A model generated the notes under the pieces. That model was not told the origin of the DNA, made no database searches, and saw only the letters and a list, made by a program, of their open reading frames with translations. From the NCBI GenBank assembly GCA_039804165.1, contig JBDRZZ010000023.1, positions 1 to 26,287 on the forward strand: a DNA stretch of 26,287 bases, written 5' to 3'. Shown here piece after piece: positions 6,277 to 26,287 of this stretch. Position numbers and translations under genes: made by a program. The first letter of the stretch is position 1. Every line of letters begins with the position of its first letter. The stretch comes from a candidate division WOR-3 bacterium (lineage in GTDB: Bacteria; Hydrothermota; UBA3072).

Positions 6277-9200
6277 ATGCATAAAAAAATTATTATGTTG
6301 TTTGTTTTAGTAGTAAGTGTCAATTATCTCTTCGCCCAAGATTATCAAAAATTCGAGAAAATTAGATTAAAGGACCTTCCACTTGAGCTTCCTGCCAAAA
6401 AGATTGAGAAACCTAAACAAATAGAGAAGTTATCTTCATCTTTAGATAATCTTTATAAACTTCATTTAAAGGGGAAAGAATATAGGCAATTTGCAACTCA
6501 ATCAAATTTGCAACTTATAAAGGATAGAGTTGTAGTTACTGTTTTACCTCAATTTGGTTCCACAATAGCTGATATTGATGAAGATAATTTAAGAGCTCTT
6601 GGCGCAAGGATTCAAGCAAAAGCGAAGCACTCAATGAGGGTAGAGATACCTATAAGTCAGCTTGAAAATGTTGCTAATAAAGTGAAGGGAATTGGATTAA
6701 TTACAGAACCTATAAAACCAGTTGAATTTGCCATCACTAGTGAAGGAGTATCTCTAATGAATGCGGATAATTGGCAAGCATCTGTTTATGAAGGTTCTGG
6801 TGTTAAAGTGGCTGTTATTGACGGAGGCTTCCAGAGTTTAACAGAAGCACAGGCTAATGGGGATATACCTTCTTCTTATAAAAGTTATGATTTTACTGGA
6901 AACGGACTTGAGACTGAAACTCCTCACGGAACAGCTGTGACTGAAGCGATTTTTGATGTAGCTCCTCAGGCTGAATTTTATTTATACAAAATAGGAGATG
7001 TGACCGATTTTGAGAATGCGAAAGATTCTTGTATTAGTAACGGTGTTCACATTGTTAACCATTCAATGGGATGGTATAATGCGAGTTACTATGATGGTAC
7101 CGGAATAATCTGCGATATTGCGAATGATGCAGTTTCCAATGGTATTACCTGGGTGAATGCAGCGGGTAATGAGGCACAAAAGCACTATCGTTCAATCTTC
7201 ACCGACAATGATAACGATGGATATCATGAGTATGCCAGTGGTGTAGAGATAAACTATTTTGGACCCGAGCCAGGCACTTTCTCCATTATCCCTGCAGGGA
7301 CTCTGATCACTGTGTTTTTAAACTGGGATGATTATCCGTATAGCGACCAAGATTATGACTTATACTTGGTTATGTGGACAGGTTCGAACTGGGTTGCCGT
7401 AGCCTCTTCCGTAGGTTTCCAAAATGGTAGCCAGCCACCCACTGAAGCCATTTATTATGTAGCTCAATATACTGCTCCCTATGGTGTAGTTATTGATGAG
7501 TATTCAACTACTCTGGATAATGACCTAACGCTTTTCACTTTGACTCTTCCTTTTGCTTATCGAACTACCTCAAGTAGTCTTCTGGACCCTGCCACTGCAG
7601 ATAGTGTAATAACTGTTGGTGCAATTGGTAAAGACCATTATGAATCCGGTCCCCAGGAATCATTTAGTTCTCAGGGACCTACAACTGACGGAAGGATTAA
7701 ACCTGATGTTATGGCCCCAGATAGTTGTAATAGTTATGCTTATGGATATTGGCAGGGAACTTCTTTATCTTCTCCTCATATAGCAGGAGTTTGTGCTCTG
7801 ATTAAATCGAGATATCCGGAATACAGTAATAGTGAGATTCGGAATTATCTATATACAAATTGTTCGGTTGATCTCGGAACTTCTGGAAAGGATAATATTT
7901 ACGGCTGGGGAAAAGTTGTTATGCCTGATATAGATACTACAATAACTATTACCTCTCCCAATGGTGGTGAGGAGTGGCAAGTTGGAAGTAGCCATGATAT
8001 CACCTGGGTTTCGAGTGGGACGAGTGGGAATGTGCACATTGAATATTCAACTGACAATGGTTCGAGTTGGCTAGATATAGTTGCCAGTATTCCGGATACA
8101 GGAGCTTACTCGTGGACGATTCCCAATACCCCATCTGATAGTTGTCTTGTGCGAATAAGTGACATTGATGGAACTCCATCTGATACAAGTGACGCTATGT
8201 TTAGGATATCGCCTACCTATCCAGGAACTATTAGATTTGTAACCGTTGATGGTTCTGGCTCTAAGGATGGCAGGAGTTGGGAAAATGCATACAATGGAAC
8301 TCAGATACAAACGGCAATTAATGAAAGTGGGGTAACGGAGGTATGGATAGCAAAAGGGACATACTATCCAACAAATCAAGTTGGTGGTACCGGAGAAAGA
8401 TTTAGAACATTTCAGATGAAAAACGGGGTGGCGATATATGGAGGATTTGCAGGGAATGAAACATCAATTGAGCAACGAGTTAATTATGGACAAGGACAAG
8501 AGAATGAGACGATATTGAGTGGAGATATAGGAATTCCTGGAGATAGTAGCGATAATTGTTATCATGTGTTTTATCATCCTTATGCAGGATTAACAAGTTC
8601 AGCGATACTTGATGGTGTTACTATTACAGGAGGAAATGCTAATGGTAATTCGCCTCATGATTGCGGAGGGGGGATGTATAATAACAATTCTTCTCCAACA
8701 TTGGTAAATGTAAATCTAATTTATAACTACGCTACACACTCTGGAGGAGGAATGTACAATGAAGACGATTCTTCACCGAAGTTGACGAATGTGATGATAA
8801 GTCACAATAGAGCTCCGTATGGGGCGGGAATTAGCAATTATGGTGCCTATGGTGATTGCAATCCAGTTTTGATGAATTCAACTATTAGTGATAATCAAGG
8901 CAGAGGAATCTATAGCACAAATTCAAGTCTAAAACTTATAAATGTAAATATCTGTAATAATACAAGTGAGGGTTTTTATCACATTGCAGGAGCACCAAAA
9001 CTAACGAATGTACTTATTAGTAATAATTCAAGAGGGATGTATGTTGAAATGTGTGCACCTACTCTTACTAATGTGACTATTACTAATAATAAGGTTCAAG
9101 GCTATGGAGGCTATGGAGGTGGTATATACCTATATAACGCAAGAGTAACATTTAACAATTGTATAATTTGGGGAAACAAGGCTAGCTCGGGTGGTAATGA

Positions 9201-10095
9201 TATTGCTATGTTTGGAGAGACATTCACATTGAATTATTCATGTTTTAGTAACCGCATAGAGGATGTATTTAAAAATTGGGGTACAGTTTCAGTAAATTCA
9301 TGCATAAACGAAGATCCTCTTTTTGTGGGTTCTGATATAAATCCTGTATATCCTTACAGTATACCTGGAAATTCTCCTTGTGTTGATGCTGGTAGTAACA
9401 TATATTGTGACGAGCCCTATGACATTCGTGGTGTAGGTTACCCGCGTAAATTGGACAAGAAAACTGGTGGGCCAGGAAAAATTGATATGGGTGCATACGA
9501 ATTTAACGTAAACACCGACTTTTTTATCACCGTAACTTCTCCCAATGGTGGTGAGGAGTGGCAGGTTGGAAGCACTCAGGATATTACATGGTCTTCAACC
9601 GGGACAAGTGGAAATAATGTGCACATTGAATATTCCACGGATAATGGTTCAACCTGGTTGGACATAATTGCTAGTATTTCCAATACAGGAGCTTACTCGT
9701 GGACGATTCCCAATACCCCATCTGATAGTTGTCTTGTGCGAATAAGTGACATTGATGGTGAACCTTCGGATGTGAGTGATGGGATATTTAGGATTTTACC
9801 TCTTTCAGCGGTTCCAGAAGAATTACCAGAAGTTTATTCAATGAGTGTAAGGTCAATTGTCACTGGTAGAAAGTTTGAAGTGAGGTATTCTCTTCCCGTG
9901 AAGGCTTCTGTTAGATTTGAAATATATGATATAAAAGGTGCAAAGATAGAAGAAATTATTGAAGAGAAGCAACGTGGTTTTTACTCAAGAGAAATAGATA
10001 TGACTGGTAGATCAGCAGGTTTATACTTCCTTAAAATGGAGGCTAACGGAGGAGAATTTACCAAAATAAGGAAGGTTGTGTTAATTAATCGTTAA
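6277..10095 (+). CDS. Large secreted S8 subtilisin-like protease with Ig-like, beta-helix and sorting domains
   Basis: A 1272-residue modular exoprotein. Residues 1-21 are a signal peptide (cleavage after LFA-Q) and about 22-150 a prodomain. The S8 domain has Asp182 (AVIDGG), His217 (TPHGTA), oxyanion Asn298 (AAGNE) and Ser496 (GTSLSSPH), so the triad is complete. A beta-sandwich-like insertion (LNWDDYP...DYDLYLV) lies between Asn298 and Ser496. Next come an Ig-like domain of the SPNGGEEW type (about 555-640), a right-handed beta-helix rich in GGGMYN and LTNVxISxN turns (about 650-1075), a second SPNGGEEW domain (about 1085-1170), and a C-terminal sorting domain ending LYFLKMEANGGEFTKIRKVVL. 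The end suggests export by a type IX-like route and surface attachment or release. The two Ig-like segments share a 76-base identical tract. Transcription is probably independent, from promoters just upstream. Confidence 0.85.
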   Translation: MHKKIIMLFVLVVSVNYLFAQDYQKFEKIRLKDLPLELPAKKIEKPKQIEKLSSSLDNLYKLHLKGKEYRQFATQSNLQLIKDRVVVTVLPQFGSTIADIDEDNLRALGARIQAKAKHSMRVEIPISQLENVANKVKGIGLITEPIKPVEFAITSEGVSLMNADNWQASVYEGSGVKVAVIDGGFQSLTEAQANGDIPSSYKSYDFTGNGLETETPHGTAVTEAIFDVAPQAEFYLYKIGDVTDFENAKDSCISNGVHIVNHSMGWYNASYYDGTGIICDIANDAVSNGITWVNAAGNEAQKHYRSIFTDNDNDGYHEYASGVEINYFGPEPGTFSIIPAGTLITVFLNWDDYPYSDQDYDLYLVMWTGSNWVAVASSVGFQNGSQPPTEAIYYVAQYTAPYGVVIDEYSTTLDNDLTLFTLTLPFAYRTTSSSLLDPATADSVITVGAIGKDHYESGPQESFSSQGPTTDGRIKPDVMAPDSCNSYAYGYWQGTSLSSPHIAGVCALIKSRYPEYSNSEIRNYLYTNCSVDLGTSGKDNIYGWGKVVMPDIDTTITITSPNGGEEWQVGSSHDITWVSSGTSGNVHIEYSTDNGSSWLDIVASIPDTGAYSWTIPNTPSDSCLVRISDIDGTPSDTSDAMFRISPTYPGTIRFVTVDGSGSKDGRSWENAYNGTQIQTAINESGVTEVWIAKGTYYPTNQVGGTGERFRTFQMKNGVAIYGGFAGNETSIEQRVNYGQGQENETILSGDIGIPGDSSDNCYHVFYHPYAGLTSSAILDGVTITGGNANGNSPHDCGGGMYNNNSSPTLVNVNLIYNYATHSGGGMYNEDDSSPKLTNVMISHNRAPYGAGISNYGAYGDCNPVLMNSTISDNQGRGIYSTNSSLKLINVNICNNTSEGFYHIAGAPKLTNVLISNNSRGMYVEMCAPTLTNVTITNNKVQGYGGYGGGIYLYNARVTFNNCIIWGNKASSGGNDIAMFGETFTLNYSCFSNRIEDVFKNWGTVSVNSCINEDPLFVGSDINPVYPYSIPGNSPCVDAGSNIYCDEPYDIRGVGYPRKLDKKTGGPGKIDMGAYEFNVNTDFFITVTSPNGGEEWQVGSTQDITWSSTGTSGNNVHIEYSTDNGSTWLDIIASISNTGAYSWTIPNTPSDSCLVRISDIDGEPSDVSDGIFRILPLSAVPEELPEVYSMSVRSIVTGRKFEVRYSLPVKASVRFEIYDIKGAKIEEIIEEKQRGFYSREIDMTGRSAGLYFLKMEANGGEFTKIRKVVLINR
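8096..8171 (+). repeat. 76-bp perfect direct repeat, copy 1, inside the protease gene
   Basis: This tract is identical, base for base, to 9683-9758. It encodes the end of the first SPNGGEEW Ig-like domain (TGAYSWTIPN...RISDIDG). The flanking parts of the two domains are similar but have silent and replacement differences. Confidence 0.9.
9683..9758 (+). repeat. 76-bp perfect direct repeat, copy 2, inside the protease gene
   Basis: Second copy of the tract at 8096-8171, 1587 bases away, in the second Ig-like domain and in the same reading frame. Recombination between the copies would remove the beta-helix yet keep the frame, since 1587 is a multiple of three. Confidence 0.9.
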
Positions 10096-10220: not shown

Positions 10221-10895
10221 ATGGAGGATGATTTGCTCCAGAAAGGAGCATCAAAGAGAGTTGCTGAGGGTGTAAGTGAGGCATGGGTTAAACACTACGG
10301 CTCCTGTTTAGTAAACTCTAATGATCGTATGACAGCCCTTGCTGTCGATTCAAGTGGAAATGTTTATGTAACAGGATATAGTTATGATACAATGAGTAAT
10401 TATGATTATGCGACAATCAAGTATAATTCGTCTGGAGAGGTTCTATGGGTAGCAAGGTATAATGGTTTAGGAAATGGAAGTGACTATGCGCGAGCCATTG
10501 CACTAGATGCAAGTGGTAATGTGTATGTGACTGGGGATAATGAAATATTGTGGGAAGCTTTAAGATGTATCACGACAATTAAGTATAGAGAGGAAGCTAA
10601 CTATGTAAAGGAGGAATTAATAGGAATACCTGATAATTATAGATTAATTCAAAATTATCCCAATCCTTTTAACTCCACAACAACAATAGAATTTTCAATT
10701 CCAAAAGATACAGAAGTTGAATTAAAAGTATTTGATGTATTAGGCAGAGAGGTATGTGAGCTGGTTAATGGGAAGATAAAGGCGGGTAAATATAGAGTGG
10801 AATGGAACGGAGACAATTTGGAAAGTGGGGTATATTTGTATAGGTTAAAACCCGATGGATATGTAGAGACGAAGAAGTTAATATTATTGAAGTAA
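10221..10895 (+). CDS. Short SBBP-repeat protein with C-terminal sorting domain (probably frameshifted at the 5' end)
   Basis: The 224 residues as read from ATG 10221 lack a signal peptide and a ribosome site. The frame is open back to about 10167, where a one-base correction joins it to the signal peptide at 10109. Residues about 20-100 hold two SBBP beta-propeller-type repeats ([16 protein letters not shown] and [16 protein letters not shown]), far fewer than needed to close a propeller. Residues 135-224 form a Por/type IX-like sorting domain ([33 protein letters not shown]). Full-length relatives usually carry many more SBBP repeats, so the gene is likely internally shortened as well. If translated without its signal peptide it would stay in the cytoplasm and be inactive. 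It follows the protease gene by 13 bases and probably shares its transcript. Confidence 0.65.
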
Positions 10896-24051: not shown

Positions 24052-24103
24052 TCTTTTAGCAAATAAATTATTCTATCAAAAATTGCTTATGAAACTTAGG
24101 AAA

Positions 24104-24115
24104 GGAGGCGAAGTG
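24104..24115 (+). promoter_or_regulatory. Ribosome binding site that sets a GTG start
   Basis: GGAGG at 24104-24108, four bases before GTG 24113. An in-frame ATG at 24089 and TTG at 24083 have no such site and would add a short Lys/Gly-rich tail before the first strand of the fold. Confidence 0.6.
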
Positions 24116-24613
24116 AAAAAAGTCGCAGTATTTGTGGATGTTCAAAACATCCAACAGGTGTTTGAGAAACGTGGTGCAGAGATAAGATACGATAAATTAA
24201 AGAAATATCTTGAAGACAAATTCAAGAAAAAAAATGGAGAAGTAATTAAGTTCACTGCTCTCATACCTATAAGAGAGTTAGATGAGAATAGGCTCAAGTT
24301 AATTGATGCAATCTCTCTCTCCGGATACAGGGTTTTGATAAAAATGGCAAAAGACAGACCGGATGGGTCTGTAAAAGCCAATATGGATGTAGAAATGGCT
24401 CTTGAAGCCATTTCTATGGCGGATTATGTAGATGAGATTGTAATTGTAACTGGAGATAGTGACTTTGAGCCATTAATACATTTCCTTAGTAGAAAAGGGA
24501 AAAAAGTTCTTTTAATTGGTCCTGGAAGAGGACCAACAGCCATAGAAATAATAAGAGCAGCAGATGAATTTGAGAACTTAGACGAGATAGAAGGTATTGT
24601 CCTTGAAGGTTGA
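24113..24613 (+). CDS. NYN-domain (LabA-like, PIN-fold) putative nuclease
   Basis: A 166-residue protein from the GTG chosen by the ribosome site. It opens with the fold's first strand, KKVAVFVDVQN, holding acidic D9, and has D92 (ANMDVEMALEA) and D115/D117 (VTGDSDFEPLI), followed by GKKVLLIGPG. These are the conserved acids of the NYN/LabA branch of PIN-like RNases, so single-stranded RNA cleavage is a reasonable expectation. It has no signal, membrane segment or zinc finger. It stands between folC and tRNA-Asn; its TGA stop overlaps the -35 box of the tRNA promoter. Confidence 0.85.
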   Translation: MKKVAVFVDVQNIQQVFEKRGAEIRYDKLKKYLEDKFKKKNGEVIKFTALIPIRELDENRLKLIDAISLSGYRVLIKMAKDRPDGSVKANMDVEMALEAISMADYVDEIVIVTGDSDFEPLIHFLSRKGKKVLLIGPGRGPTAIEIIRAADEFENLDEIEGIVLEG

Positions 24614-24650: not shown

Positions 24651-24725
24651 TCCTCGGTAGCTCAAAGGCAGAGCGCCTGACTGTTAATCAGGAAGTTGCA
24701 GGTTCGAGTCCTGCCCGAGGAGCCA
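24651..24725 (+). tRNA. tRNA-Asn (GTT), with encoded CCA
   Basis: Acceptor TCCTCGG/CCGAGGA with discriminator G, D-arm GCTC/GAGC, anticodon stem CCTGA/TCAGG with loop CTGTTAA (anticodon GTT), T-arm GCAGG-TTCGAGT-CCTGC. CCA is encoded at 24723-24725, unlike in the two other tRNAs of the window. The 3' half is also read on the other strand as the end of the serine recombinase. Confidence 0.95.
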
Positions 24726-24790
24726 TTTTGAACAATACGAACTGGGGATTTTCTGAAAATGGAACGGAAGTCCCCTTTTCTTTTTTATCC
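24688..24790. mobile_element. Candidate attachment junction (attL-like) of an element integrated at tRNA-Asn
   Basis: The recombinase frame runs without a break from the element through a terminator-like hairpin and the 3' half of tRNA-Asn, stopping in the anticodon stem. A recombinase gene abutting the 3' end of an intact tRNA is the classic arrangement of an integrated element. The exact core cannot be fixed because the other end lies outside the window and no second copy of the tRNA 3' end is visible here. Confidence 0.45.
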
Positions 24791-26112
24791 CCACTTAACC
24801 CAACCCTTGAAGAAATATTTGAATTTTTGAAAGTGTCAAAATCCTCTGAATAATAAAGATTTATCTGAATTTGTTCTTTTGAATAAAGAATGTTTTTTAT
24901 GAACTTTTTGATTAAAAGATTCCTTTCAATTCCTTTTTGTTGGGCAAGGGATTTTAAAAATATTTTGAGGATATTTTGAAGCGTTTGAGAGGAAAGCGGA
25001 GAGCATTCTTCCGTTAGTTCGTGTCCAGAGCGATAGCCCGATTCCGGGTCATTATTAAGTCTGAAAATGAGATTTTCAAGGTATATTTTGTCATTTGAAA
25101 TTCTCTCAAGATTATCAAAAATGAAATTTTCTAATCTGTTTGCGTTGACTTGTCTAACACTACATGAATCCCAATCCATCTTAAAAGTTTTGGTGCATCG
25201 GTAATAATAGTATCGTTTAAGTCTTTCTTCTTTTCTCTTGTTTGTATAGCAAGGCGTCATAATAGAACCACAGTTATTGCAGATGACAAGTCCTGAAAAA
25301 AGAAAATCTTTATATACTCGCAGAGTCTTAATTTTCTTGTGATGTATTTCTTGAGCAAGATTAAAAAGTTCTTCAGAAATAATGGGCTGGTGGATTCCTT
25401 GATAAATTTTTCCAGCATAGTTTAGCTTTCCGGTATAAACAATATTTCTTAGAATATAATGTATAGCACTTTTTGAGAAATTATTACCTTGTCTATCTTT
25501 AATCTCTCTCTGCTTCAATTCATCATAAGTCTTAAATAAGGAACCGCTTGTTACATAAGTTTCATAAATAAACTTTACAATTTCAGCCTCTTTAGGATTG
25601 ATAACAAGTCTTTTATTCTCTCTTTTATATCCATAAGGCACAATTCCACCATTCCACATTCCCTTTTTAGCTCTTTCAAGCATTTTGTCTTTTGTTCTCT
25701 CAGAGGCTAATTCTCTTTCAAATTGAGCAAAGGTAAGCATAATGTTTCTTAGAAGTCTTCCGGCTGGTGTAGAAGTATCAAACCTTTCTGTTATAGATAT
25801 AAAATCAACCTTATATTTCTCAAAAAATTCTATCAGCTGGTAGAAATCTTTAGGTGAGCGAGTGAGCCTATCAATTTTGTAAACCAAAACGATATTGATT
25901 TTTCCATGCATTATATCTTGTAATAATTCTTGCAAAGCAGGACGATTGAGATTAGCTCCTGTATAACCAGCATCAGAATATACCTTAAAAACTTCCCAGT
26001 TATTTTGACTCTTAATAAAAGCCTTTATCTTCTCCTCTTGAGCTTCACAGGAGGAAAATTCCTTCTCTGCCTGATTATCTGTTGATACCCTTGTATAAAT
26101 TGCACATTTCAT
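24688..26112 (-). CDS. Large serine recombinase / site-specific integrase, C-terminus encoded by tRNA-Asn antisense
   Basis: A 474-residue recombinase. The resolvase catalytic domain (1-150) holds S10 (YTRVSTDNQAEKEFS) and VYKIDRLTRSPKDF. The Recombinase domain (about 160-270) includes YGYKRENKRLVINPKEAEIVKFIYETY and SKSAIHYILRNIVYTG. A zinc-ribbon segment follows with CNNCG (about 279-283), then YRCTK and CSV as later cysteines, and a helical part. It should integrate and excise a mobile element by serine chemistry. The last residues, APRAGLEPATS, are the antisense of tRNA-Asn, and the preceding stretch reads through a terminator, so the native end may be earlier, near SSRVGLSG. The start ATG 26112 has no clear ribosome site and lies ten bases after the upstream OLD-like gene, suggesting coupling. 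Confidence 0.9.
   Translation of the reverse strand: MKCAIYTRVSTDNQAEKEFSSCEAQEEKIKAFIKSQNNWEVFKVYSDAGYTGANLNRPALQELLQDIMHGKINIVLVYKIDRLTRSPKDFYQLIEFFEKYKVDFISITERFDTSTPAGRLLRNIMLTFAQFERELASERTKDKMLERAKKGMWNGGIVPYGYKRENKRLVINPKEAEIVKFIYETYVTSGSLFKTYDELKQREIKDRQGNNFSKSAIHYILRNIVYTGKLNYAGKIYQGIHQPIISEELFNLAQEIHHKKIKTLRVYKDFLFSGLVICNNCGSIMTPCYTNKRKEERLKRYYYYRCTKTFKMDWDSCSVRQVNANRLENFIFDNLERISNDKIYLENLIFRLNNDPESGYRSGHELTEECSPLSSQTLQNILKIFLKSLAQQKGIERNLLIKKFIKNILYSKEQIQINLYYSEDFDTFKNSNISSRVGLSGDKKEKGTSVPFSENPQFVLFKMAPRAGLEPATS
24744..24786 (+). terminator. Rho-independent terminator downstream of tRNA-Asn
   Basis: Arms GGGGATTTTC (24744-24753) and GGAAGTCCCC (24766-24775) pair over ten bases with two G-T pairs and a 12-base loop, followed by TTTTCTTTTTT. 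It would end the tRNA-Asn transcript and also stop it running antisense into the recombinase gene. It lies inside the last part of the recombinase frame. Confidence 0.75.
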
Positions 26113-26122
26113 ATTAGTTTAA

Positions 26123-26287
26123 TTACAAACTTAACAATTTCTGTATAGCGGTTTTTATAATTTCAGGAATTGATTTTTCGTCATTAATTGAAGAGATAGT
26201 TTTTCTAGCAGCTAAAACCTTTCTTTTTTTCTCTTTTATATTAAAGATTCCTTCAAAATCTGGGTCTATACTAAAAACAATATTAGG
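26123..26287 (-). CDS. C-terminus of a possible OLD-family (TOPRIM) ATP-dependent nuclease, cut by window edge
   Basis: The - strand frame is open from the window edge for 54 codons and stops at 26123-26125. It contains VFSIDPDFEGIFNI, similar to the acidic D-x-D-x-E motif of TOPRIM domains of OLD-family nucleases. A lysine-rich stretch (KEKKRKVLAARK) and SIPEIIKTAIQKL follow, which also fits the end of that family. Such proteins (Old, Gajia GajA, retron partners) act against phage or foreign DNA. Only the tail is visible, so the assignment is tentative. It is just upstream of, and probably co-transcribed with, the serine recombinase, making it cargo of the integrated element. Confidence 0.4.
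   Translation of the reverse strand, partial: PNIVFSIDPDFEGIFNIKEKKRKVLAARKTISSINDEKSIPEIIKTAIQKLLSL

Follow-up and report, generated by a model that had tools for sequence, protein, structure and literature searches.

A serine integrase gene that ends inside tRNA-Asn and whose C-terminal tail is probably exchanged on integration

Can a serine recombinase gene borrow its end from the tRNA gene beside which its element sits, and would that end change if the element were excised? The question arises at the right-hand end of the window, by which we mean the whole stretch of DNA analysed, contig C23 in its full length of 26,287 bases, from a draft genome of 1.96 Mb in 49 contigs that is 95% complete. 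Here a recombinase gene and a tRNA-Asn gene are convergent and overlapping:

24688..26112, minus strand: large serine recombinase (integrase) of 474 aa, identified by its Pfam domains; the codons below 24723 are antisense tRNA
24651..24725, plus strand: tRNA-Asn(GTT), the integration target, called by ARAGORN and Rfam

The 474-aa protein has the domain set of a large serine recombinase, with Resolvase (3e-41) followed by Recombinase (2.8e-18) and a zinc ribbon (4.8e-13) in Pfam, which, together with the tRNA call, confirms an earlier note on this DNA in its claim that a serine recombinase adjoins tRNA-Asn. That note had also read the last 11 residues and the stop as coming from the antisense of the tRNA, and on comparing the ORF with the tRNA coordinates this proved exact: the final residues, APRAGLEPATS, are antisense tRNA-Asn, and the stop codon (24688-24690) lies within the 3' strand of the anticodon stem. 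The best named NCBIfam matches of the recombinase are CcrA, CcrB and CcrC of the SCC cassettes, but its score against CcrB, 202.7 bits over 355 aa, is far under the curated cut-off of 900. SCC cassettes have their attB at rlmH, whereas the target here is tRNA-Asn, and on both counts the element falls outside the SCC cassettes.

Where the element begins can be read from related genomes, in which the site is marked by a chromosomal neighbour:

24083..24613, plus strand: NYN-domain (LabA-like) gene (Pfam NYN, 1.1e-25), the chromosomal neighbour marking the site in relatives

Of the 9 relatives examined, 8 have a NYN gene directly preceding tRNA-Asn; in the ninth (L040) no tRNA was seen by the NYN gene. 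Four relatives from the same family, L032 (of the same genus), L033, L034 and L035, have the NYN gene and then tRNA-Asn with the site empty. In these four the tRNA has no encoded CCA and ends ...CGAGGAG, that is ...CCCGAGGAG, after which the flanks diverge, reading TTTAATTT in L032, AATAATAT in L033, AATTTAAT in L034 and TTTTAAAT in L035; the next gene in L032 and L035 codes for a transporter, which we take to be a Na/Pi-cotransporter-like protein. In the window, ...CCCGAGGAG runs directly into CCATTTTGAACAATACG, so that ...CGAGGAG is followed by CCATTTT. The empty sites thus put the insertion at the boundary of the tRNA, and the element starts at the discriminator base, with the tRNA bases through 24722 belonging to the host and the CCA at 24723-24725 supplied by the element. 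Further in, the element also seems to provide the tRNA with a terminator:

24744..24787, plus strand: terminator-like hairpin and T-run that the element provides for the tRNA; antisense to the integrase 3' end, which it overlaps

The fold of this hairpin is modest in the window (-16.4 kcal/mol, z -1.3), and the hairpin at the equivalent place in the relative L017 reaches -24.9 with a z of -3.0. The presence of a mobile element at tRNA-Asn is upheld, its boundary being given by the comparison with L032-L035. The earlier note had held that finding the same recombinase end and tRNA order in relatives, and no element boundary, would speak against an element. The order itself is literally found, but it comes from insertions at this tRNA in other lineages, and the refutation does not follow from it, as the empty site is seen in genomes of the same family that lack the element.

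The recombinase is rare in the phylum of the window (3 of 147 genomes at E<=1e-60, its own genome included), and relatives 89-90% identical to it are found in MAGs assigned to Ignavibacterium, Endomicrobia and Omnitrophota, with a likewise patchy occurrence in Elusimicrobiota and in the class of the Ignavibacterium MAG. Searches of plasmids and phages gave only recombinase relatives below 60% identity, and the best matches in viral contigs were only 26% identical. The close relatives with sequence past the integrase (L017, L019 and L022) all adjoin tRNA-Asn in convergent orientation. A recombinase relative is present in 79 of 285 Omnitrophota genomes at E<=1e-50, and a convergent plain tRNA lies just 3' of the recombinase in 17 of the 30 Omnitrophota loci fetched, a count that rises by 6, to 23 of 30, if tRNA introns are allowed. 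In those 23 loci the tRNA overlaps the recombinase or lies up to ~800 bp away, and the types found at the Omnitrophota loci include Asn, Lys, Ala, His, Glu, Leu, Ser, Gln, Val/Asp and Met, among others. In the tree, the lineages around the window have integrase frames that run into the tRNA, and one derived group has integrases with their own stop 250-780 bp short of it. The same convergent layout in L017, L019, L022 and the Omnitrophota loci indicates that the overlap of recombinase and tRNA is not a matter of chance.

Some tRNAs beside the integrases looked degenerate, a reading that was dropped for L102 (genome G076, Omnitrophota), where the gene is that of a tRNA-Asn whose anticodon loop is interrupted by a group I intron (10238-10576; RF00028, E 4e-18). 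Intron-bearing tRNA calls were also obtained at the Omnitrophota loci L138, L142, L149, L103 and L106.

On the other side of the recombinase gene, the window ends within what appears to be cargo:

26123..26287, minus strand: OLD-family ATPase/TOPRIM defence gene, 3' end only, truncated where the contig stops; cargo

These last 165 bases match, in frame, the C-terminus of the OLD protein of L017 (PADLOC Old, 1.9e-66), where the order is an HTH_17 gene, the OLD ATPase/TOPRIM gene and then the recombinase. L018 has DruA, NurA and HerA genes as cargo, and a neighbouring type II methyltransferase and restriction enzyme; the cargo genes of both loci are of defence type. The small HTH_17 protein that precedes the cargo in L017 (334-531, PADLOC mad1-like) is a candidate recombination directionality factor. 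Near-identical HTH and OLD genes and integrase start occur in L020 and L021, from bins labelled Actinomycetota and Nitrososphaeria, reflecting either very recent transfer or mis-binning. Elsewhere in the window there is a two-copy coding repeat (7942-8214 and 9526-9801, 79-84% identity), partly reading SPNGGEEWQVGS, which resembles cell-surface proteins.

An assembly or binning artefact in the tRNA neighbourhood of the window itself would be in keeping with a draft contig that ends inside the element and with an OLD gene found identical in bins of different domains (L020, L021). We nevertheless regard it as highly improbable, since clean relatives have the NYN gene and tRNA-Asn in this order, and assemblies made independently show the junction again.

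To which class of attachment site do these junctions belong? An alignment of ten right and ten left junctions, from relatives and the window, brought out three short motifs:

24702..24707, plus strand: GTTCGA of the T-loop, putative attB-type half-site motif, 15 nt from the discriminator base, from the junction alignment
24720..24722, plus strand: GAG, putative crossover core, common to host and element, from the comparison of left and right junctions in relatives
24737..24742, plus strand: ACGAAC, inverted motif of the putative P' arm, 14 nt inside the element, at attP spacing

In all ten tRNA junctions, GTTCGA of the T-loop stops 15 nt short of the end of the tRNA. In the arm lying outside on the left, GTTYGA, or a variant of it with one base changed, stops 18-20 nt short of that boundary. 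The inverted motif of the inner arm starts 12-16 nt past it and is decayed in L086 and in one L018 junction. The left-arm motif occurs exactly once, and at the same place, in 8 of 8 arms, with a per-arm chance of 0.4-3% by shuffling, to be read as a figure for a pattern chosen after inspection and for arms that are related. For the LI integrase, the published sites have the zinc-ribbon motif closer to the centre in attB than in attP, by 5 bp (PMC3783163). Because the shift in motif spacing matches this rule, the tRNA can be assigned as the attB-type half-site and both element arms as attP-type; the window junction, which contributes the attL side only, is then an attL, and what relatives have on the left amounts to a complete attP. 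Right and left junctions have at least the last 3 tRNA bases in common (TCA in tRNA-Lys) and up to 7, which places the core at tRNA positions 71-73. A core of ~3-7 nt fits a serine integrase, and relatives for which both ends are available combine this short core with a motif nearer the centre in attB. The spacing of the T-loop is common to tRNAs, and as a consequence the integrase family would be able to move between them.

The locus could alternatively be an ordinary tRNA island of the tyrosine type with the serine recombinase as a passenger, tRNA 3' ends being the classical target of tyrosine integrases (PMC4383910). However, many genomes have this serine recombinase family at the junction, the tRNA concerned varies, and the core of 3-7 nt comes without a direct repeat and with the attB/attP spacing of a serine integrase, which leaves the passenger reading hardly any credit.

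At the far side of the element, a segment of the window has a counterpart in relatives:

24720..25000, minus strand: integrase 3'-end segment, inverted at the far side in relatives (terminal inverted repeat, TIR)

An inverted copy of the recombinase 3' end precedes the HTH gene in L017 (275 nt, 91%) and L018 (~97%), ending GAGCCA. Inverted copies of 140-262 nt are present in L096, L099, L102, L104 and L107, of which L096 is at a tRNA of type Ser, L099 at Ala, L107 at Lys and L104 at Asn; L086 has a weaker inverted arrangement, and in the derived group the inverted copy was absent from the loci examined. The expectation of the earlier note that the far end would carry a duplicated tRNA 3' segment was not borne out, since relatives have no direct copy and show the inverted recombinase 3' end instead, which finishes on the same few final tRNA bases, and in the window's own draft genome the tRNA 3' end was found in one copy only. 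In that same genome the TIR is present once, and no native tail (described below) was found. Over the terminal 2-6 kb on either side of each of the 48 remaining contigs, there is no OLD, HTH or TIR sequence and no match to the transporter gene found after tRNA-Asn in relatives. The assembly lacks the far end of the element in the window.

Outside the inverted repeat, relatives have another arm. Reading these outside-left flanks as chromosomal DNA was ruled out, both by their being common to loci L102 and L020, and to L096 and L107, and by their attP-type motif. A flank as a mini-tRNA with a promoter was also considered and dropped, its -10-like box being the reverse of conserved ILPN/ILPH codons. 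The inner inverted copy means that the integrated element still contains a complete attP. One plain insertion would not be expected to leave such an attP next to an inverted integrase 3' copy, and does not fully account for it; a circle bearing two inverted attP sites would produce this arrangement, and repeated insertion at the same tRNA might do so as well. Two segments adjoining the integrase segment lie between inverted copies of the outer att arm: L018 761-3022 (copies of 241 nt, 99%) holds a type II restriction-modification pair and L086 1951-7053 (86 nt, 94%) holds sensor kinase/response regulator genes. In L206 (G306:C53), the ~500 bp after tRNA-Asn hold a native-tail arm and part of a second tRNA-Asn 3' end, and no integrase was found nearby; this is possibly a non-autonomous or decayed mini-element.

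When the integrase frame is read across the core into the outer arm, a tail with a common ending is obtained in 7 of 8 loci. The conserved C-terminal peptide is IILPNTIHxCKKKNL, and the tails read IIPNTIHQSKRKNL (L104), ILPNTIHKCKKKNLR (L102), ILPNMIHGCKRKDI (L133), ILSNSIHGCRNNL (L086), ILPHKLLDRTHLKT (L096), ILPHRLLDKRHL (L107) and ILPHNLIKTKNLERNLT (L099), the native tail mostly stopping a few residues past the motif. The eighth locus is L018, the closest relative with a far junction, which has no conserved tail in the integrase frame and whose neighbour arm belongs to another lineage. A search of the 285 Omnitrophota genomes with the integrase C-terminus and tail returned many tails without an integrase body, typically preceded by a hairpin and a TTGGCTCC-like core that resembles a tRNA end, and these we read as attR-like sites. 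Furthermore, L132 (560 aa) keeps the tail in one ORF, as ...KTFIPIVFPNIQH... and then 20 more residues, and so does L205, which the end of its contig limits to at least 285 aa and which ends ...IPIVLPNNIHACKRKNL; no tRNA was found beside L132. Judged by their reading frames, both look like an uncut integrase gene.

When 19 distinct tails are compared, codon positions 1, 2 and 3 show 0.20, 0.12 and 0.55 differences per site, and codon differences number 1058 synonymous against 542 nonsynonymous in the integrase frame, compared with 206 against 1404 and 78 against 1537 in the other two frames, these being counts over related sequences and not over independent events. Because it is only in the integrase frame that the differences gather at the third codon position and leave the residue mostly unchanged, the comparison points clearly to coding selection on the native tail in relatives. 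A constraint on the DNA, whether an integrase binding site or a promoter, could also preserve the peptide, with the far arm being open in frame by accident; the far arm is in fact a predicted binding site, and the ILPN/ILPH codons form the -10-like box on the opposite strand. A binding site would keep bases and not codons, though, and the confinement of third-position, mostly synonymous differences to the integrase frame makes this explanation a distinctly improbable one.

A different doubt is whether the tails matter at all. The element may be real and the read-through incidental, with the functional integrase ending ~40-60 codons before the core and both tails neutral. The stretch of protein from the last conserved block to the core varies in sequence, as such neutrality would have it, and the tRNA-derived tails differ in frame among relatives (MAPRAGLEPATS versus GSPGRIRTCDK), for which reason we take them not to be selected and selection on the integrated-state tail to be very unlikely. 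However, neutrality would not conserve a native tail between loci and between target tRNAs, and the far-arm tail appears to be under coding selection and mostly stops soon after its motif, so that we consider neutral tails unlikely. Exchange of a coding tail for a tRNA-derived one agrees with the earlier suggestion that the recombinase takes its end from the site of attachment and that this end could change on excision, as by our reading it should. The native tail in relatives supports that suggestion and, by lying on the other attP arm, gives a stronger result than was then proposed.

Taken together, we think it probable that the window holds the attL of a defence-carrying element inserted by a serine integrase at tRNA-Asn, with attP within the integrase gene and the tail swapped. 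In the mechanism that we hypothesise, the serine integrase would have joined the element to the 3' end of tRNA-Asn, recognising the T-loop GTTCGA as an attB half-site and crossing over in the last three tRNA bases, positions 71-73, and the element would restore the tRNA with its own CCA and terminator. In the circular element, the integrase frame would run through attP into the other arm, which would encode roughly the last 25-35 residues with the conserved terminal motif. Integration would then cut the gene near its end, the body staying beside the tRNA with a stop from antisense tRNA and the native tail being stranded at the far end of the element, and excision would restore that tail. By analogy with relatives, the window's own element would have had such a far arm, and we infer that the tail swap alters integrase activity. 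Whether all this extends to a group of bacterial serine integrases with attP in their own coding sequence, able to target any tRNA through its T-loop and using the tail swap as an activity switch, seems to us evenly balanced. Nearly all loci are metagenome assemblies, and no excised circle was seen.

If this is true, the tail swap would be a built-in switch that changes integrase activity once the defence element is in place, and locking of serine integrases after integration would become directly testable through attP within the gene. T-loop recognition would account for the spread of one family over tRNAs for Asn, Ser, Lys, Ala and Gln, and integrases that work in many different bacteria may come of it. 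Moreover, since the elements carry OLD, Druantia-like and restriction genes, they offer a route for defence genes between phyla. In open-access literature, covered partially, no paper turned up that describes an attP lying within the gene of a serine integrase, which argues weakly for novelty.

Compared with known systems, the present family is like the large serine integrases TP901-1, A118/LI, Bxb1 and phiC31 in its Resolvase, Recombinase and zinc-ribbon domains and its short core, and like LI in an attB motif nearer the crossover than that of attP (by 5 bp in LI, PMC3783163, and 3-5 here), but unlike them it targets tRNA 3' ends through the T-loop consensus and appears to have attP inside the integrase coding sequence. 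As in the tRNA islands of tyrosine integrases (Islander), the target gene is restored by the island's own sequence; unlike those islands, there is no displaced direct-repeat fragment, only discriminator-proximal bases are common and the CCA is element-supplied. In the integration-dependent immunity of actinobacteriophages (PMC5559632, citing Broussard 2013), attP also lies in a coding gene and integration alters the C-terminus of the protein, but there it is the repressor of the phage that loses a tail, and this tail is an ssrA-like degradation tag, whereas here the gene is the integrase itself and the tail, ending KKKNL, is by sequence unlike a degradation tag. Suicidal integrases of the SSV type belong to the tyrosine family and have been described as exclusive to archaea (PMC8371274); they and the phage immunity systems are the closest cases in the literature found. 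They have the recombination site within the integrase gene and integration splits that gene, and in our relatives, as read from sequence, attP likewise lies inside the integrase gene, which would be interrupted on integration. Unlike the SSV type, the present enzymes are serine integrases from bacterial MAGs in which only the C-terminal tail would be exchanged, with the catalytic and DNA-binding domains left intact. If the reading holds, they would be a serine-family, bacterial counterpart of the archaeal suicidal integrases, and the logic of those integrases would have arisen independently.
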